The notes below the pieces were generated by a model. It had not been told where the DNA came from and did no database searches. It saw only the letters and a list, made by a program, of their open reading frames with translations. This document shows positions 25,872-35,443 of a stretch of DNA of 64,000 nt, piece by piece (positions within the stretch are counted from its first letter, which is position 1; every line of letters starts with the position of its first letter). The translations under genes were made by a program, and so were the position numbers. Source of the DNA: Microbacterium suaedae (GTDB taxonomy: Bacteria; Actinomycetota; Actinomycetes; Actinomycetales; Microbacteriaceae); NCBI RefSeq assembly GCF_003254645.1, contig NZ_PNFD01000002.1:124001-188000 (forward strand), written 5' to 3'.

Positions 25872-25904
25872 CGGCCCCGCACCGAGTTGATCGGTGCGGG
25901 GCCG
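25872..25904 (+). terminator. Intrinsic terminator after ilvC
   Basis: A perfect 14-bp G+C-rich stem (25872-25885 with 25891-25904), loop GTTGA, followed by TTTCGT. Confidence 0.9.
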
Positions 25905-26008: not shown

Positions 26009-26788
26009 TCAGCGAGCCGGACGCGTCTCGACGAAGAGCTCGAACGTGGTCCCGACGCCCGCGGGGATCGCGTCGAGATAGGCGCGGTAGGGAAAGACGA
26101 AGCCCGCGGGCTGGTAGCCGTACGAATCTTCGGCGCAATCGAAGACCTCGCCATCCTCACCGCGGATGACGACGGTCGTGTCGAGCCAGTGCTCGCGCTC
26201 GTCCGTGCCCGAAACGTGCGTGATCTCGCCCTGCAGCTGCGCGTCGGCTTCACCACGCTCGATCCGCAGCGGCGACAGCTCGATCCGCCCGAACTCGGTC
26301 TCGGGAACCGCACGGGCGTGCCGAGGGTCGAGGTGCGCGGCCACGCGAGGATGATCGATGTCGAAGACCTCAGCGAGGTCGGCCGTCGCGAGGTTGCGCC
26401 CGGGACGGAGCGTCGTGCGGCAGGTGTTGGACTCGACGACGGCTCCGGTCAGATCCGTGACCTGGAACACGACATCGACCTGCTCGTACACCGTGCCGTT
26501 CTCGGGCATCTCGATGACCACGGCGGCGTAGACGTCCCCGGCGAGGGGCTCCTGATAGATCGAGAACTCCCGCAGCGTGTGCGCGGGCAGATCGGCTCCC
26601 GGAGGCTCGATCGGTGACCCCGCCGAACCGACGCGGAGCCCACGTCTGCCGAAGACGGCGTAGACGATCGCCGCGATCCCCAGGACGAACAGGGGAACCT
26701 CGACGATCAGGGTCGTGTGGAGGGCGGCGACCACCGCGATCGCGGCGATGCCGGCCAGCGCGATGAGCAGTCTCGTGCTCGTCTTCAT
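26009..26788 (-). CDS. Membrane-anchored protein with an extracytoplasmic beta-rich domain, unknown function
   Basis: A 259-residue protein with two adjacent hydrophobic segments at the N-terminus (about residues 5-25 and 28-48) and a polar domain of about 190 residues. ATG 26788 is chosen because AAGGAG lies just before it; ATG 26803 adds five residues. The polar domain aligns by eye with the C-terminal domain of the protein at 28196-29461: shared patterns include LATA followed by an acidic stretch, a P-x-x-EFG segment, and LQGE/LSGE-ITH/VTS. It lies 21 bp after the small membrane protein gene at 26810-27166, which matches the other half of that larger protein. Confidence 0.78.
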   Translation of the reverse strand: MKTSTRLLIALAGIAAIAVVAALHTTLIVEVPLFVLGIAAIVYAVFGRRGLRVGSAGSPIEPPGADLPAHTLREFSIYQEPLAGDVYAAVVIEMPENGTVYEQVDVVFQVTDLTGAVVESNTCRTTLRPGRNLATADLAEVFDIDHPRVAAHLDPRHARAVPETEFGRIELSPLRIERGEADAQLQGEITHVSGTDEREHWLDTTVVIRGEDGEVFDCAEDSYGYQPAGFVFPYRAYLDAIPAGVGTTFELFVETRPAR

Positions 26789-26809
26789 GATTCTCCTTGG
26801 CATATCGCG

Positions 26810-27166
26810 TCAACCGGTCTGGCCGAGGACGAAGAAGAACAGTGCGACGGCACCGACCGAGAGGAGGAGGACGATCGCGTCGAGCACGATCGCCGAGATG
26901 GCCCATCCGCGACCTCGCGCCCGTCGAGCGAGGCACACGATGGCGACGATGAGGCTCGCGACGCTGAAGATGCTTCCCGCGATCGCGGCGAACGGCGCGA
27001 AGAGCATCCAAGCGAGTGGGGCCCAGCCCGAGTCGTCCACGGGGAAGAACGCGAGGAGCGCGATTGGGGGAAGCAGGAACCCGAGCAGGGCGAGGACGAA
27101 GGAGGTGAGGGCGAGCTTCCTGCCGCCGGGCCTCCGGGGCGTGGGGACGAGGGTGGGATCGGTCAT
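26810..27166 (-). CDS. DUF4190-like small membrane protein
   Basis: A 118-residue protein with a short Pro-rich N-terminus (TDPTLVPTPRRPGG) and three hydrophobic helices (about residues 17-40, 50-80 and 88-112), with a basic RRARGRG turn before the last helix. The helix pattern matches DUF4190-type domains, and the KLALTSFVLALLGFLL and AISAIVLD segments resemble the membrane domain of the protein at 28196-29461. GAGAGG lies eight bases before the ATG. It is the first gene of a two-gene operon with 26009-26788. Confidence 0.78.
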   Translation of the reverse strand: MTDPTLVPTPRRPGGRKLALTSFVLALLGFLLPPIALLAFFPVDDSGWAPLAWMLFAPFAAIAGSIFSVASLIVAIVCLARRARGRGWAISAIVLDAIVLLLSVGAVALFFFVLGQTG

Positions 27167-27244
27167 GTCGGTCGCCTCTCTCGGGCGTCGTAGGTTCGTG
27201 GGGCTTGTATCGCTTGTTGGCGCGGACGCCTACTGTGTCGGAGC

Positions 27245-27601
27245 ATGAAGTCCGTTCATCGCGCGGAGTTCCGCGCACTTCTTGAAGAGCACCGCGAGTC
27301 CGTCATGCGCGCCCGGCGACGAGGCGGGGAAGATCTCGACGAGCTGGCGGAGGCACGCTCGGCCGCGACCGCCGACGACGAGCACGATCCGGAGGGGGCG
27401 ACGCTCTCTGATGAATGGTCGCGGCTGACGGGGATCGACGCGGAGGCTCGCGCTGAACTGCTCGCGATCGATGCAGCCCTCGCTCGTCTGGACGACGACA
27501 CATACGGCATCTGCGTGTCGTGCGGGCGGCGGATCCCCGTGGCGCGCCTGCGCGTGCGGCCCACGGCGACGATGTGCGTCGACTGCGCCGCGGCGCAGTG
27601 A
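27245..27601 (+). CDS. DksA/TraR-like C4 zinc-finger protein
   Basis: A 118-residue protein with a helical, acidic N-terminal half (coiled-coil-like, about residues 5-80) and a C-terminal zinc finger CVSC-(17 residues)-CVDC in the order GICVSCGRRIP and TATMCVDCAA. This is the DksA/TraR fold, whose members bind RNA polymerase through the secondary channel. The family includes short actinobacterial proteins of unknown role. A TACTGT box lies eight bases before the ATG and no ribosome site is seen, so the gene may be leaderless. Confidence 0.85.
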   Translation: MKSVHRAEFRALLEEHRESVMRARRRGGEDLDELAEARSAATADDEHDPEGATLSDEWSRLTGIDAEARAELLAIDAALARLDDDTYGICVSCGRRIPVARLRVRPTATMCVDCAAAQ

Positions 27602-27696
27602 ATCCGTTCTCCACAGATCTCGGGAATCCGCGATATCCATCCACAATCGGGGGTTCCGGCCGGGTGGCGTCGGCCTGACTCGGTCAGGCTTGCGTC

Positions 27697-28155
27697 ATGA
27701 CTCATGACAAGACGCTTGAATTCTTCCGCGGTCGCCCTCTCACCGACGATCGCGAGCTCTCTCGCCTCGTGGCGGCCCTTCTTGACGAGGCGATCACCGA
27801 CCGCGTATGGCTTCTCCTCCTCGACGACGAGATGCGATGGACCGAGGTGGTGATTCCGATCGACGAGCTCCCTGTCGACGCCTCGGAGGTCGTTGCGATG
27901 CCGAGCGGCGGGCCGATCGAGGCGGCTGCGATGCTCGGCTCCCGGGTAGCGGACATCGTGCGACAGACGCCCGTCGCGTCGGTCATCGTGGTGTGGGAGC
28001 GCCCGGGGGCGTCGGGGGCTCGGGCAGACACCCTCGCCTGGGCAGACGCGATGCGCGCCGCCTTCGTCGAGTCGCCGGATGCGCTGCGCGCGCAATTGGT
28101 GTTGACCGATGAAGGTGCGCATCTCCTTGGGGCTCCCGTGCGTCGGGCGGCGTGA
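27697..28155 (+). CDS. Hypothetical cytosolic protein, 152 residues
   Basis: I do not recognise a family. The protein has no signal peptide or membrane segment. It is mostly alpha/beta, with a patch WLLLLDDEMRWTEVVIPID near residues 47-65 and a hydrophobic strand VASVIVVWERPG near 109-120 flanked by acidic residues. A CAGGCT box lies six bases before the ATG, close to the leaderless promoters elsewhere in the window. It follows the zinc-finger gene by about 95 bp and converges with the gene at 28196. Confidence 0.75.
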   Translation: MTHDKTLEFFRGRPLTDDRELSRLVAALLDEAITDRVWLLLLDDEMRWTEVVIPIDELPVDASEVVAMPSGGPIEAAAMLGSRVADIVRQTPVASVIVVWERPGASGARADTLAWADAMRAAFVESPDALRAQLVLTDEGAHLLGAPVRRAA

Positions 28156-28164
28156 GGTGTGTCT

Positions 28165-28194
28165 GGGCCCGCCCGCGGCGAGGTGCGCGGGCCC
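28165..28194. terminator. Short hairpin between convergent genes
   Basis: An 8-bp stem GGGCCCGC / GCGGGCCC with a 14-nt loop lies between the stops at 28155 and 28196. It may serve both strands, but it is weak. Confidence 0.45.
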
Positions 28195-28195
28195 G

Positions 28196-29461
28196 TCAGA
28201 ATCCGGGCTGGACGTAGGCCTCGTAGGTGGCGTCATTCGGAATCTCGAGGAACGAATCGATCGTGAAATCGGCGGTTCCGCCTGCCGGGAGGGTCTCGAT
28301 GACGCCCCATTCAAGCCCGATCGGGTCGCCTCCTGCATCGCGGAAGAGGATGTCGATCTCGACGTAGTTGCGGTCTTCCGGAGTCGTCGACGTCACCTCA
28401 CCCGACAGGGCCGTGGTGAATTCGTCGGCTTCTCGCGTGACATCCCCGATCGAGACCGCGCCGAACTCCGACGCGGGGATCGGGTCGGAACCGTACGTCT
28501 CCGCGACAGCGACGTCGAGCTGAGCGACCTCGTCGATGGCAATGTCGATGAAGTTCGCGGTCGCGAGCGCCGGGCCGTCCGGTGTGACGGTGATGATGTC
28601 GTACTGGGTGTCGAGGATCTGGCCGGCGTCGTCGAGCAGATCGATCGTGACCTCGAGTTCCGGGTAGACGAGCTCGTCGCTGCCGCTTTCGACGAGAACG
28701 GTCGCGTACGTGAGGAAGTCGTCACTCCAGAGGGTCTGCTCGGTCACCTCGACATCGGCCGAAGCCGCCCCAAGGCCGGGCACGCTCTCGGTCGCGCCGT
28801 CCTCGGCGCCGCCTTCGGGGGATCCGAACTCGGGGTTCTCATCGAAGAGCTCGGGATTGTCTTCGATGAATCCGTCGAGGTCGCCCGAGACCGAGGAGAA
28901 GGCGGCGATGATCGAGATCGTCAGGAAGATCATCCCGATGCCGATCAGAGTGCCGATCCCGGAAACGATGAGCGCGGCGATGCTCATTCCCTTGCCCGCT
29001 GCCTTCTTGACGAGCGCGACGATCGCCAGAACGAGCGCGACGACCGTGATGACGACGCCGAGGAACGCCGCGAAGGGGATGAAGCAGAGGAGTGCACCGA
29101 CGATCGCCAGGACGAGAGCCGCGATCGCGAGACCCTTGCCGCTCTTCTGGGGCGCCCCGGGGACAGGGGGAGCGCCGGGAGGCGGGACGGGCGCACCGGG
29201 CGAGCCGTAGGCGGCTCCGCCGTACGGATCAGAGCCTGCCGTGCCGGGGTAGCCGTAGCCGGGCTGCGGGACACCGCTCTGCTCGTACGGCGGGGCCGGC
29301 TGCTCGTAGCCCGGCGTTGCGGGGGCGGCCGGCTGCTGCGGCTCCTGCGCAGGCTGTGGCTCCTGCGGCGGCTGCGGGGCCGCCGACTCAGGACCGGCGG
29401 ATGGCGCAGGCGGAACCGGCGGTTGCGCGTTGGGGTCGTCGGGGTGATTGCTGTCGGACAT
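28196..29461 (-). CDS. DUF4190-containing membrane protein with Pro-rich N-terminus and extracytoplasmic domain
   Basis: A 421-residue protein in three parts. Residues 1 to about 130 are a Pro/Gln/Gly/Tyr-rich cytoplasmic tail with repeats such as PPQEPQPAQEPQQ. About 135-225 is a DUF4190-like membrane domain (GLAIAALVLAIVGALL, then GKGMSIAALIVSG). About 260-421 is a beta-rich domain. The membrane part resembles the product of 26810-27166 and the last part that of 26009-26788, so this gene looks like a fusion of those two. AGGAG precedes ATG 29461. Function unknown; such proteins are common in actinobacterial envelopes. Confidence 0.82.
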   Translation of the reverse strand: MSDSNHPDDPNAQPPVPPAPSAGPESAAPQPPQEPQPAQEPQQPAAPATPGYEQPAPPYEQSGVPQPGYGYPGTAGSDPYGGAAYGSPGAPVPPPGAPPVPGAPQKSGKGLAIAALVLAIVGALLCFIPFAAFLGVVITVVALVLAIVALVKKAAGKGMSIAALIVSGIGTLIGIGMIFLTISIIAAFSSVSGDLDGFIEDNPELFDENPEFGSPEGGAEDGATESVPGLGAASADVEVTEQTLWSDDFLTYATVLVESGSDELVYPELEVTIDLLDDAGQILDTQYDIITVTPDGPALATANFIDIAIDEVAQLDVAVAETYGSDPIPASEFGAVSIGDVTREADEFTTALSGEVTSTTPEDRNYVEIDILFRDAGGDPIGLEWGVIETLPAGGTADFTIDSFLEIPNDATYEAYVQPGF

Positions 29462-31464: not shown

Positions 31465-34400
31465 TCAGCCGCAGGCGAAGCCCTCATACGGCGCAACCGA
31501 GATCTCCTGCTGCCGCTCGCCGTCAGTTCGCACCGTAGCGACGATCTCGGCTTCGCCGGCCGCGGTCTCGCTCGTTCGCGTCCGGAAGGCAGCCGAGGCG
31601 CTGTCTCCGGGGGCGACGGTGTCGAACATCTTCTCGCCGAACGCGGTGCGCACCTCGATATCCACAGGAGAGTTGCCGACGTTCGTGGCCGTCACGGTCA
31701 GCACGCTGTTCGAACCGAGGCAGCGGTTCGACGTCGTCGCAGTGATGGCCGGATCCGCTTCGAAGGCCACGCGCACCGTCGACTCGCTCGTTACGGATCC
31801 GTCGGCGGACGTCACCGTGACGCGCCCGATCCAGCTGTTCTCCTCGGACGGCTGCACGACCTCCGCAGTTGCCTCCTCATCCACGGTGAACGCCTGCACG
31901 AACGGGACGGATCCCTTCGGCGCCGTCACCTCGTACGACGTCCCGTCGATGGCGAACCCCGGCACTGTCGCACCGGAGACGCGCAGGTCGGCGAGCGCCG
32001 CCTCCGACGCGGGGGCCGCCACTCGTTCGAACAGCTCGACCTCCGACACGATCATGTGCATGCCCTCGGCCGCGTGCAGGACGAATCGCACACCGGTTGC
32101 CCGCATGGCCGGAAACTCGGCTGTCACGACGGGCGCACCGACGCTCGGTGAATCGACGGCTTGCGGTTCCTCCCAGCCGGGCGCCGGCGTCCACTCGCCG
32201 TTCGTATCACGTAGCTCGACCGTCATCGTCTCGGCCCAGCTTGCGCGCCCGTCGCGCCAGAAGCGCATCGTGGTCTGTTCGAGTTCGCGCGCCTCAAAGG
32301 AATACGTGAGAGTGCTCGTGCTCTCCTGGGCGCTGCCAGACCAGTTCGACCATCCCTTGTCATCGCGGACGCCGTTGAGCGTGCGCTCTGCGGGATAGCC
32401 GGGCTCGGCAAAGCTCGCCTCGACCGCGACGCCGCCGTCTGCGGCGAAGCTGCGCAGTGTGCCCTCGGTGACGATCACCGTGAGACGCGCAGCGAGGTCA
32501 TCGCCATCCGCCCGGGCCGTTCCGGAGACCGTCACCGAACCTGCAGATGCGAGCGCGCTCTCGTCGAATGACGACCAGCTCCACTCGACGGGCACGTCGA
32601 ATGCGTTCTCGGATGCGCCGACGCGGGCCGGGACCTCGGCTGGTGCCGCGATCTTCACAGCGTTGAGGCTCGCGCCCTCCGCCACCGTGACCGAGACGGG
32701 ATCCGTCGCCGTCAGGCCGCCGACATCGACGCGCGCGACGACGGTGAACTGCTGGCCGAACAGGTCGACGGCGGTTCCCGGAACCTCGACGCGGCCCTCG
32801 GAATCCCAAGCAGATGCGTCCGGCATGTCCCAATCGACCTGAACGCTCGCACCCGTGCCCCACGCGTACTGCGAGGGGACGGTGTCGGGGAGAACGGGCG
32901 CGATGCCCGCCGTGGTGCGGGCGGGAATCGTGGCTCCATCGATGGGGGCGAGGTCGCGGGGTGTCCATGCCTGATTCGCGCCGTCGTTCGATCCGTAGAC
33001 GCCGACCGATGCGCCCTCGTCGGTGGATTGCCCGCCGACCTCGAGCGCGAGGGCGAGCGATTCGTTCACGAAGGAGAACGTCTTCCCGTCGGTCGTGTTG
33101 ACTATCCAGCGCGTCTCCGGATCTTCGGAGGCAGTGGCGGGATCCATGTCGCGCAGATCCGTCCCGGCGCTCGTTGCTCCGAGGATCCGTCCGTCGCCGT
33201 TCTCGAAGACGACGCGCTGCGTCGCGCTCCGCTCGCCGACGGCGGCTTCGTGGATCGTCCACTTCTGTGCCGATGCGGTGCTCTCCTCGTCGGCGAGAGT
33301 CGCGATGCTCGTCGCCGCGTTCGTGCCGCCCGCGGTAAGCGCCTTGCCGCTCTGGGCGCCGACGAGCTGGTAGCTGCGGCCGTTCTCGACCGCGGGGGCA
33401 TCGGCGGAGACGCCGGAGATGCCGTCGATGACGAACGTCGTGACCGACTTCGCCGGAACCGTGAGCGTCGCCGAGGCGGATCCGCGATCAACCGCGACGG
33501 GGGTCCCTTCGACGAGGGAGTTGGCGGTCGGTTCGTCAGCCGATGGCGCCTCGGTGGTGACGACGGGCGTCACCGTCGCGCCGTCCGCGATCTCGCCGAA
33601 CCCGGAGAGGTCGAGCGTGACGGAGGCGCCGTCCGTTCCCGTGTTGCGGTGAACGATCGTGGCGCCGGTGCCGTCGCCTCGGACGGCCGCCGTGCTCGAG
33701 GGGTCGTCAACCGCGACGAGGTGATCGCCCTCCTGAATGAACTTCGTGAAGTTGCGGATCGTGTTGAACTTCGAGTTCGTCTCGACGCCGCACGCGTCCA
33801 CGGCTGAGGAGTCGCCGCCTGCGTCGGCGACGCGGCGTGCGGACTTCCACACCGTCTCGCCGTTCTCCTCGTACGGCTCGCAGTCGAGGTCGATGAAGAC
33901 GGAGCCCCAGTTGAGGTTCTCCCCCTGCGGCTGCATGTTGTAGAGGTCTTCGACGGGCTGCCACAGCACCCACGCCGTCGGCTCGAGCTCGCGCAGATCG
34001 TCCATGATCCGTCCCGCGATGCCGAGGCCGTTCTCGATGTTCACGGCATCGTATCCGTCGACCCAGCTTCCTTCGATCTCGCTCATCCACAGCGGGGTGT
34101 CCGCCTGCTTCGCGAGGTCGCGCACGACGAGACGTCCGTCTGTGCCGTAGGTGTGCACGTTCATGCGGCCGACGCTCTCGCGCGTCTCGGTCGGGTAGGC
34201 CGCCCAGTTCGTTGCGAAGATTCCGGGGTTCGTCTCGTCCATCGCCGCGATTTCGGCGTCGGTGTCGGCGCCCTCCAGGGCGTCGGCGAGCGCTCCTACA
34301 ACGTCGACCTGGCGCTCGGGGCCGACGTGCATGCCCTCCTGGCGTCCGCCGACCGGCACGCCGTTCTCGAGCTGCGTGCCCCAGTAGTTCGTGTTCGGCT

Positions 34401-35124
34401 CGTTGAAGGGATCGATCGTCTCGACCTGGATCCCGTGCTCGGCTTCGAGCGACTCCGTGACGTTCACGAGGTACTGTGCGAACGCCGCGTCAGCCTCCGG
34501 CTTCAGCTGCTCGGCGTTCGGGTCGAAGCCGCCCGATACGTAGCCGCTCTCGGTCATGAAGTACGGCGCCGAGTTCGCGAAGGTCTCCCAGTGCGTGATC
34601 CGGTCGTCGGCGACGAGCCGATCGACCCACCAGCGCTGGGTCTCGTCGGCGTCGCTGTCGTAGTGCGCGGGATCAGCCGCGTCGAATGCCTCCAGCACCG
34701 CGTCGCGCTCGGCGTACGTCGTGGCCGCACCGCCGTACCTGCCTGCGGAGCCGTCGGGATCCGCCGCCCACCAGCCTTCGACGGCACCGCCCGCGCGCAG
34801 GTAATCATCGACGTCCGAGGCGCTTCCGCCGCCGATGTTGTACCGAGCGATGTTGAGGTCGAGGCCGTCCTCGCCGAACACGGCTTGGTACAGCTGCTCG
34901 CGCAACTGCTCGGGGTAGTCGCCGGTTGCGTTGGCGAACCAGACGAGGCTCGTGCCCCAGCCCTCGAACTCCTCGCCCGCGTAGCCCGGATTCGGGGTGA
35001 TCGTGACAGAGCGCTCGGCGGCCAGGGCCGTGCTGACCGTCGGCAGAGCGACCAGCCCGCCCGCGACGAGTGCGGCACCCGTCGTGACCGCCGCGGCGCG
35101 TCGGAATGTGTGCGATGTCGGCAT
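31465..35124 (-). CDS. Secreted multidomain GH30 glycosidase, probable endo-beta-1,6-galactanase
   Basis: A 1219-residue exported enzyme. A signal peptide covers residues 1 to about 36 (cleavage near ALA-A). The GH30 catalytic region (about 38-580) has the acid/base E242 in DPFNEPN and likely nucleophile E349 in WMSEIEG. FEGWGTSLVWFANATG near the N-terminus is typical of the beta-1,6-galactanase-like subfamily. A ricin-like carbohydrate-binding module (about 583-720, with AQKWTI and NQAWTP) follows, then two bacterial Ig-like repeats (733-890), a discoidin-like module (893-1034) and Ig-like C-terminal domains. No LPxTG or S-layer anchor is seen. It would cut arabinogalactan-type side chains outside the cell. 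ATG 35124 lies nine bases after AGGGG. Confidence 0.88.
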   Translation of the reverse strand: MPTSHTFRRAAAVTTGAALVAGGLVALPTVSTALAAERSVTITPNPGYAGEEFEGWGTSLVWFANATGDYPEQLREQLYQAVFGEDGLDLNIARYNIGGGSASDVDDYLRAGGAVEGWWAADPDGSAGRYGGAATTYAERDAVLEAFDAADPAHYDSDADETQRWWVDRLVADDRITHWETFANSAPYFMTESGYVSGGFDPNAEQLKPEADAAFAQYLVNVTESLEAEHGIQVETIDPFNEPNTNYWGTQLENGVPVGGRQEGMHVGPERQVDVVGALADALEGADTDAEIAAMDETNPGIFATNWAAYPTETRESVGRMNVHTYGTDGRLVVRDLAKQADTPLWMSEIEGSWVDGYDAVNIENGLGIAGRIMDDLRELEPTAWVLWQPVEDLYNMQPQGENLNWGSVFIDLDCEPYEENGETVWKSARRVADAGGDSSAVDACGVETNSKFNTIRNFTKFIQEGDHLVAVDDPSSTAAVRGDGTGATIVHRNTGTDGASVTLDLSGFGEIADGATVTPVVTTEAPSADEPTANSLVEGTPVAVDRGSASATLTVPAKSVTTFVIDGISGVSADAPAVENGRSYQLVGAQSGKALTAGGTNAATSIATLADEESTASAQKWTIHEAAVGERSATQRVVFENGDGRILGATSAGTDLRDMDPATASEDPETRWIVNTTDGKTFSFVNESLALALEVGGQSTDEGASVGVYGSNDGANQAWTPRDLAPIDGATIPARTTAGIAPVLPDTVPSQYAWGTGASVQVDWDMPDASAWDSEGRVEVPGTAVDLFGQQFTVVARVDVGGLTATDPVSVTVAEGASLNAVKIAAPAEVPARVGASENAFDVPVEWSWSSFDESALASAGSVTVSGTARADGDDLAARLTVIVTEGTLRSFAADGGVAVEASFAEPGYPAERTLNGVRDDKGWSNWSGSAQESTSTLTYSFEARELEQTTMRFWRDGRASWAETMTVELRDTNGEWTPAPGWEEPQAVDSPSVGAPVVTAEFPAMRATGVRFVLHAAEGMHMIVSEVELFERVAAPASEAALADLRVSGATVPGFAIDGTSYEVTAPKGSVPFVQAFTVDEEATAEVVQPSEENSWIGRVTVTSADGSVTSESTVRVAFEADPAITATTSNRCLGSNSVLTVTATNVGNSPVDIEVRTAFGEKMFDTVAPGDSASAAFRTRTSETAAGEAEIVATVRTDGERQQEISVAPYEGFACG

Positions 35125-35183
35125 CGACACCGTCCCCTTTCTTCGTCGAAAGCGTCGCCACGGGAACCGAGGCGACGCGGAAG

Positions 35184-35189
35184 ACACTA
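35184..35189 (-). promoter_or_regulatory. -10 box (TAGTGT) of the GH30 gene
   Basis: Read on the minus strand, TAGTGT lies about 60 bp before the start codon, just downstream of an operator-like palindrome. The whole 35125-35456 stretch holds this promoter, the operator and the promoter of the lipoprotein gene at 35457; I see no further gene in it. Confidence 0.5.
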
Positions 35190-35191
35190 CA

Positions 35192-35205
35192 TGTTTGCGC
35201 AACCA
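35192..35205 (-). promoter_or_regulatory. LacI-type operator in the GH30 promoter
   Basis: TGTTTGCGCAACCA is a 14-bp near-palindrome (two paired mismatches) with centre TTGCGCAA. It sits where the -10/-35 spacer of the GH30 promoter should be, so binding would repress. It differs from both operators of the arabinose island. Confidence 0.55.
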
Positions 35206-35443
35206 TCGCGGAAGGGGTGGGCGGTAGGGGCACGATCGAGTACTTCGCTTCGGCGCTCGAGGTTTGGGACGCGAAGGGGCGCGCCGTTCGTTCGGAGATG
35301 TGCCCGAACGACGGATCCCGACGCGGGGACGAGTCCGTCGAATCGGCAATTCTCCGGCGTTGTGGCTCGGGCGAGGGCAGTCGAGGGCGGGACCGCCCGC
35401 GCGGGGCTGTGGATAACTTTCTTCACCCTCACGCGGATTCCTC

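Follow-up and report, generated by a model that had tools for sequence, protein, structure and literature searches.

The window, by which we mean the whole 64,000-nucleotide stretch of Microbacterium suaedae DNA that was analysed, carries an ordinary one-piece membrane protein (P0003) and, beside it, a rare and strongly changed two-gene version of it (P0002 and P0001) that looks like a local offshoot. On our best reading, the pair arose locally when the neighbouring fused gene was duplicated and split, and it then diverged fast. A preliminary description of this DNA had treated the arrangement as a Rosetta-stone case; that inference is weaker than claimed, because the anchor is also found by itself or joined to different ectodomains, and FxLYD pairs also occur as lipoproteins.

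Table 1. Features of the split pair, the fused gene and their surroundings, in window coordinates.
Feature	Position	Strand	Description	Basis
Terminator-like hairpin	25872..25904		14 pairs; between convergent ends of ilvC and P0001	
P0001	26009..26788	-	259 aa; N-terminal two-helix hairpin and tandem FxLYD-like domain	
P0001 residues 72-257	26018..26575	-	tandem FxLYD-like domain	profile match, alignment, model
P0001 residues 7-46	26651..26770	-	hydrophobic hairpin; flanks MKTSTR and FGRRGLR, basic at both ends	sequence
Shine-Dalgarno-like AAGGAG	26793..26798	-	4 nt 5' of the P0001 ATG at 26788	sequence
TGA stop of P0002	26810..26812	-	in frame with P0001	sequence
P0002	26810..27166	-	118 aa; three-helix anchor of the P0003 kind, short basic N-terminus	
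P0003	28196..29461	-	fused protein, 421 aa	
P0003 residues 334-421	28199..28462	-	second FxLYD repeat	NF038353 best stretch 349-412; fold model
P0003 residues 236-333	28463..28756	-	first FxLYD-like repeat	fold model; half-versus-half profile match; within outer profile
P0003 residues 191-235	28757..28891	-	acidic linker	sequence; partly low pLDDT
P0003 residues 109-190	28892..29137	-	three-helix anchor, sub-threshold DUF4190	anchor profile, fold model
P0003 residues 1-104	29150..29461	-	Pro-rich N-terminal tail (predicted cytoplasmic)	sequence

All three open reading frames were found on the minus strand (Table 1), bearing out the earlier recognition of two adjacent genes and a single gene. 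P0002 and P0001 are separated by 21 nt and lie in one reading frame with a single TGA between them, and both show a coding-like GC content by codon position; given the spacing, they are probably co-transcribed as one transcript. The shared frame and the lone TGA would also fit a single protein made by read-through of that codon, which we regard as very improbable and reject on two grounds: P0001 has its own ribosome-binding-like site and ATG, and the charge pattern speaks against it, since the strongly basic RDMPRRIMKTSTR would end up outside after three helices. The Pro-rich tail that the preliminary description had given to P0003 is present and predicted to be cytoplasmic, but it stands at the N-terminus.

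By sequence comparison, the outer domains of P0001 and P0003 are homologous, and so, separately, are the membrane parts of P0002 and P0003. For the outer domains, BLASTP gave 42.7 bits at 28% identity over 134 columns (E 4e-9), and a search of the host genome with P0003 matched P0002 (5.7e-7) and P0001 (3.9e-6) as separate places. A profile of 19 relatives that excludes both P0001 and P0003 (17 of them fused proteins, the others a lipoprotein and a fragment of an interrupted gene, chosen by phmmer with the outer part of P0003 as query) matched P0001 at 48.7 bits (E 1.9e-14), spanning profile positions 4-168 of 170, as compared with a maximum of 6.9 bits and a best E of 0.13 among 500 shuffles of P0001 residues 51-259 scored with the same profile. 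The similarity between the P0001 outer domain and the C-terminal domain of P0003, on which the earlier proposal hung, is thus significant. A DUF2125 match to P0001 (E 0.0054, 16.7 bits) fell below the cut-off of 24.2.

The outer domain is a tandem FxLYD-type domain. NF038353 (FxLYD) matched P0003 at 33.0 bits (E 4.1e-8, cut-off 23), with its best stretch in the second repeat, as well as 17 of the 18 rows of alignment A1 at E up to 1 (best 5e-10). P0003 is a member by score; only one of its stretches passes by itself, so that its first repeat is recognised from profile and fold evidence; P0001 gave no NF038353 match at E up to 10, hence none at 23 bits, and is tied to the family only through its relatives, by way of the 19-row profile. 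Within the outer domain the first and second halves are homologous to each other, as indicated by hhalign of the halves of alignment A2 (probability 88, E 3.2e-6, 40 columns), for which 30 column shuffles reached a best E of 0.083. The outer part of P0003 was modelled as two beta-sandwiches, the best of five models having a mean pLDDT of 70.5 and the other four 52.7-56.8. The second repeat (model 244-330) matched a domain of the GH2 enzyme 6d50, which we take to be that enzyme's Ig-like domain, with Z 10.0 and rmsd 2.1 over 84 residues, so that the model points to a whole-domain Ig-like beta-sandwich fold for this repeat. The P0001 model is weak (mean pLDDT 60.8), and its agreement with that of P0003 is not independent because the P0003 outer part was the sole other row of its alignment; the alignments used for structure prediction consisted of window sequences and L103 only. 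The top Foldseek rows (protein 4.2, factor XIII, STT3 and AglB domains, GH2 enzymes, arrestins, RbmA and a WxL-binding protein) were set aside as shared beta-sandwich folds that are uninformative on function, given their whole-model TM of 0.07-0.24 and large rmsd. A PDB sequence search with the outer profile returned six chains at E up to 10 and no credible relative, the best of them, a fructose 1-phosphate kinase (E 0.011), being rejected as not credible.

For the membrane parts, BLASTP of P0002 against P0003 gave 45.4 bits at 29% over 103 columns (E 4e-11). A profile of 57 anchor regions, the P0003 anchor itself among its rows, matched P0002 at 35.3 bits (E 3.1e-10; best single stretch 30.7), and 300 shuffles reached at best 9.5 bits for the whole sequence and 13.0 for a single stretch. 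Hence both alignments put forward in the preliminary description, of the membrane parts and of the outer domains, hold up. Its label of DUF4190-like for P0002 does not: P0002 and P0003 score 15.7 and 16.8 bits with PF13828, below the gathering cut-off of 35, and are not formal members of DUF4190, with which they have in common a three-helix anchor, a basic loop before helix 3 and weak matches. A literature search found no papers on DUF4190 or FxLYD.

There is no similarity between P0001 and P0002 (E 24). MAFFT aligns the P0001 hairpin (residues 7-46) with anchor helices 1-2, but this identification was rejected, as the hairpin scored 2.2 bits against the fused-anchor profile, below many shuffles. 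The hairpin has no demonstrated source, which counts against the derivation from the fused gene that we favour. Because P0001 has this extra two-helix segment, the pair does not correspond to the fused protein simply cut in two; the earlier claim of the same parts in the same order stands as to homology and order and gives way at the hairpin.

The anchor looks promiscuous and, judging from its matches, behaves as an interchangeable module. Ten proteins with other ectodomains match the anchor profile at E 3.6e-11 or better; they were picked from the search matches for having another C-terminal part. The comparison extends to DUF2510/DUF4352-type membrane proteins of the genus, which have the same kind of anchor with a different C-terminal part: DUF2510 is above cut-off in three of the ten and DUF4352 appears only below threshold, in two. 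They differ from P0003 in that none of the ten, picked as they were for that, matches the FxLYD profile. At the orthologous site, two genomes (G360 and G099) have the anchor alone, without an ectodomain, and a third (G148) has another ectodomain on it. Conversely, lipoprotein-like proteins in three genomes carry the FxLYD pair, and reading 6.5-8 kb around each of these genes revealed no separate frame for an anchor.

These occurrences bear on the classical Rosetta-stone reading, in which P0002 and P0001 would assemble into one membrane complex equivalent in function to P0003, its FxLYD pair lying outside. The two proteins do match non-overlapping parts of P0003 and not each other, they stand in the order of the fused gene only 21 nt apart, and fused copies are common across the genus. 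However, promiscuous parts confound fusion-based predictions of interaction and are a known cause of false ones, as a published account states (PMC2248599), and the anchor and the FxLYD pair are each found apart from the other; moreover, the split form does not recur in other genomes among the 366 of the genus, and P0001 has an anchor of its own whose basic residues predict a cytoplasmic domain. We consider this reading unlikely. The operon layout makes a P0002-P0001 complex plausible, but such a complex is not established by the Rosetta-stone argument from which the preliminary description had predicted it.

By the positive-inside rule, basic flanks predict the cytoplasmic side of a membrane segment. 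The P0001 hairpin has two K/R before it and three R after it, whereas in 49 of the 63 fused anchors the 20 residues that follow helix 3 are free of K/R (mean 0.3, some up to 3), and the P0003 linker has none there together with eight D/E. The P0001 outer domain (residues 71-259) contains two Cys and 15 Arg, against no Cys in all 65 other rows and, for K+R, 15 against a mean of 6.0 (sd 2.5, max 12). In relative terms its K+R content is 7.9%, compared to 1.6% in P0003 and 8.3-12.6% in six cytoplasmic proteins of the window. The separate two-helix anchor of P0001 with its basic flanks, the two Cys and the higher Arg content lead us to predict that the P0001 outer domain is on the cytoplasmic side, in contrast to P0003, whose FxLYD repeats we infer to lie outside the membrane. 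Composition does not settle the membrane side, because an exported glycosidase within the window has 5.8% K+R (and 0.34% Cys). The two P0001 cysteines might also be joined in a disulphide, as would suit a domain outside the membrane.

P0003 itself is an unexceptional representative of a family of surface proteins that is common in the genus Microbacterium. Comparing split and fused forms across genomes, a check that the preliminary description had proposed, we found the fused form in 62 of the 71 copies outside the own genome (366 genus genomes searched), while the two-gene form was seen only in the own genome, apart from one stop-codon break (G225). One named locus came out of the P0003 search, Candidatus Microbacterium stercoravium DXAM01000050.1. 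The P0002/P0001 pair is absent from all 12 loci (11 genomes) at which ilvC and the next gene are readable, and the split form looks derived because of this absence; at these loci at most 273 nt separates the matched end of ilvC from that of the next gene, as against 1387 nt here. One reading of 29 loci used the 11 with ilvC beside a 152-aa gene, the other 18 showing the 152-aa gene only.

Fused-gene copies are interrupted by TAG in G225 and by TAA in G347, and partial frames occur in G208 and G339. Together with the very long P0001 branch and the lack of a close match to the pair in the other genomes of the 366 searched, this would suit a broken copy without function that is heading to loss. 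Yet neither frame is interrupted and the GC pattern of both is that of coding DNA; P0001 is matched by almost the full length of the outer profile and is preceded by a ribosome-binding-like site of its own. We consider such decay unlikely.

We infer the local origin of the pair from the positions of the closest relatives of its two halves. P0002 matches at E up to 1e-4 were found in four of the 366 genus genomes: P0003 in the own genome (1.9e-6), the anchor-only orthologues at the P0003 locus in G360 (2.2e-5) and G099 (2.6e-5), and another protein in G145 (9.8e-5). The P0001 outer domain groups with P0003 at support 100/82, a grouping that the tree tool flagged as a meeting of long branches; the P0001 branch measures 3.13 against a median of 0.16, its composition is odd, and holding P0001 with L102 instead was not rejected (p-AU 0.179). 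Without P0003, P0001 sits at the midpoint root with no close sister, and in a quick tree of this kind its nearest relative by path length is L098, a fused orthologue at the P0003 locus. The motif P-x-x-EFG is common to P0001, P0003 and the G098 protein, and is in none of the other 13 rows of alignment A2. The trees leave out L089 and L104 (duplicates of L092 and L138), L094-L096 (partial), L134-L137 (weak or partial) and the interrupted G347 copy; the identical rows L124 and L125 are both kept in trees and counts. Horizontal transfer of the pair from an unsampled relative, rather than an origin from the neighbouring gene, is improbable in our view: no orthologue of P0002/P0001 was found in the genus genomes searched, the divergence is strong, and a neighbour-like codon pattern is compatible with a related donor, but the nearest relatives of both halves are at the P0003 locus or its orthologues, with the reservation that the tree involves long branches.

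Local copying and fission, the explanation to which we give a modest preference, would run as follows. P0003 combines a Pro-rich cytoplasmic tail, a three-helix anchor, an acidic linker and two Ig-like FxLYD repeats that would lie outside. The fused gene would have been copied in this lineage, broken between anchor and ectodomain, and then changed rapidly; P0001, with a hairpin anchor of its own, would have its FxLYD pair turned to the cytoplasmic face, and P0002 would be left as a three-helix anchor and nothing more. The membrane helices of the two may still bring them together, although the fused protein is no proof of this. More tentatively, the fission may have moved a tandem Ig-like domain from outside to inside, a two-helix hairpin replacing the odd-numbered anchor and cytoplasm-typical Cys and Arg being gained, while the outside sister was kept 1.4 kb away, where it serves as a ready-made control. 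At the cell envelope the fused protein may serve as a passive scaffold or binding module, and the pair would be a diverged, possibly repurposed or decaying derivative of it.

The locus offers a small and testable example of how a fusion/fission pair could lead the customary inference of interaction astray, and possibly a case of a domain changing membrane side after fission. At the site downstream of ilvC, the same anchor carries FxLYD repeats, another ectodomain or none, depending on the species. This variation speaks for a construction of these poorly described surface proteins from exchangeable parts.

P0003, a fused protein with a Pro-rich tail, a three-helix membrane anchor, an acidic linker and two FxLYD repeats, matched both members of the nearby gene pair by BLASTP, at E 4e-9 for P0001 (an FxLYD-like domain protein with a hairpin of its own) and E 4e-11 for P0002 (a three-helix anchor protein); P0001 and P0002 compared directly gave no match. 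A profile of 19 relatives built without P0001 and P0003, most of whose members were first found with P0001 as query and admitted on their match to P0003, recovered P0001 at E 1.9e-14 (profile positions 4–168 of 170), while the best of 500 shuffles reached only 0.13. Similarly, a profile of 57 anchor regions scored 35.3 bits against P0002; shuffling its membrane stretch gave at best 9.5 bits, with one shuffle carrying a single stretch at 13.0 bits. The P0001 hairpin scored 2.2 bits against this anchor profile, which is chance level. The likeness of the split and fused proteins noted in the preliminary description was thus right and reflects homology beyond chance.

The FxLYD model NF038353 matched P0003 above cut-off in its second repeat, and matched 17 of the 18 rows of alignment A1 with E values of 1 or lower. 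Support for a first, weaker repeat comes from a comparison of the two halves of the family alignment (E 3.2e-6, against 0.083 for the best of 30 column shuffles) and from the fold model, in which AlphaFold predicted two beta-sandwiches (best model mean pLDDT 70.5, with block means of 73–90 from model residue 151 onward; remaining four models 52.7–56.8). The modelled second repeat of P0003 resembled an Ig-like domain found in 6d50, a GH2 enzyme (Z 10.0, 2.1 Å over 84 residues). For P0001, the predicted strand order was similar (best pLDDT 60.8). The anchor resembles DUF4190, but scores below its cut-off.

Within the pair, a single TGA separates P0002 from P0001, both genes being in one frame; the P0001 ATG is preceded by an AAGGAG of its own, and a terminator-like hairpin of 14 pairs lies 3′ of the gene. 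The names ilvC and rpsA are our own assignments from sequence. The 152-aa protein had no Pfam match. The one relative with a name, Candidatus Microbacterium stercoravium, has a similar gene order and an RpsA 99.6% identical to that of the window over the 271 residues available, which makes Microbacterium the probable genus.

Features of the window around the split and fused genes
Feature	Coordinates	Strand	Description
P0001	26009-26788	minus	259 aa, between ilvC and rpsA
P0002	26810-27166	minus	118 aa, between ilvC and rpsA
DksA/TraR zinc-finger protein gene	27245-27601	plus	between the pair and P0003
Gene for 152-aa protein	27697-28155	plus	between the pair and P0003
P0003	28196-29461	minus	421 aa, between ilvC and rpsA
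Long protein	31465-35349	minus	GH30-type, Big_4 and ricin-type lectin domains; sub-threshold F5/8 C match

Among 366 genomes of the genus, the outer profile matched at least 73 places, spread over 68 genomes; in a 398-genome family sample it matched at least the own genome and G456, which belongs to another genus. Up to nine and eight candidates per genome were scored, respectively, so weak copies may be missed. Outside the own genome, 62 of 71 genus places were single frames with two or more hydrophobic segments among the 230 residues that precede the FxLYD match (G156 and G064 are included although partial matches). Two copies (G066, G187) were lipoprotein-like, with a hydrophobic segment and lipobox pattern, as was a third in G456; reading 6.5–8 kb around each of these three revealed no anchor in a frame of its own. 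The lipoprotein-like proteins of the three genomes, at L093, L097 and L138, have a lipobox pattern and the same two FxLYD domains. The other places comprised one copy broken by a TAG between anchor and ectodomain (G225), one with an internal TAA (G347), two partial frames (G208, G339), one running to the contig end (G326) and two weak copies without clear anchor (G205 second place, G067). In G225 (L139, 1300–2700) the TAG sits in the linker of a gene fused in relatives; by eye, the second half has no start codon directly after it.

With the 152-aa gene as locus marker (67 of 325 genus genomes, E up to 1e-8), the best 29 loci were read; the 11 also containing ilvC, plus L147/L103, gave 12 loci in 11 genomes (G360 twice). 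L103 and L147 have identical match coordinates and are apparently one stretch. At each of the 12, no more than 273 nt separated the matched end of ilvC from that of the following gene (dksA-like or 152-aa), and the P0002–P0001 pair was present at none; rpsA fell inside the stretch read at four (G098, G099, G156, G360). The P0003 site held a fused FxLYD gene at five loci (G098, G172, G361, G269 and G326, the last cut by the contig end), an anchor alone at two (G099, G360) and an anchor with a different ectodomain at one (G148); at four, the anchor match was absent in the part read (~1.5 kb). The fused gene is therefore common at this site, its ectodomain can be lost or exchanged there, and within what was searched only this species has the pair. 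The G148 gene (L158, 1966–3417, minus) carries its ectodomain, for which Pfam gave no match with an E value of 0.5 or lower, on an anchor of the P0003 kind. The P0003 orthologues at L103/L147 (1141–1767) and L148 (1168–1797) have a short acidic tail beyond helix 3, lack the FxLYD domain and have the next gene close behind. At several loci the 152-aa gene neighbours the anchor/FxLYD gene; at some of these the dksA-like gene lies between the two.

Of 366 genomes, four had a P0002 match with an E value of 1e-4 or lower; the matches were P0003 in its own genome, two anchor-only P0003 orthologues and one other protein. The P0001 ectodomain grouped with P0003 (support 100/82), so that each of the two halves leads back to the neighbouring gene. 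Without P0003 in the tree, L098 was nearest to P0001 by path length, yet P0001 had no close sister. A derivation of the pair from P0003, as the sequences suggest, is not secure: the P0001 branch is long (3.13), the tree software cautioned that this grouping joins long branches, and another placement was not rejected (p-AU 0.179).

In P0003 and P0002, basic residues precede helix 1 and occupy the loop from helix 2 to helix 3, but do not follow helix 3, so their N-terminus is predicted inside and their C-terminus outside; the FxLYD domains of the lipoprotein-like relatives are also predicted outside. The two helices of P0001 are flanked by basic residues on either side, and therefore both ends are predicted inside, which would place its domain on the inner side of the membrane. 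This domain has 15 K+R (maximum 12 in other rows) and two cysteines against none in 65 other rows; the cysteines could form a disulphide, with the domain outside.

The preliminary description had taken the split and fused forms as a Rosetta-stone case predicting one complex. The homology holds but does not establish such a complex: the anchor appears to be a promiscuous module, the two-gene form is rare and seems to be derived, and its topology, as predicted, appears to differ from that of the fused form. The most interesting possibility is that the FxLYD domain may have switched membrane side after fission.
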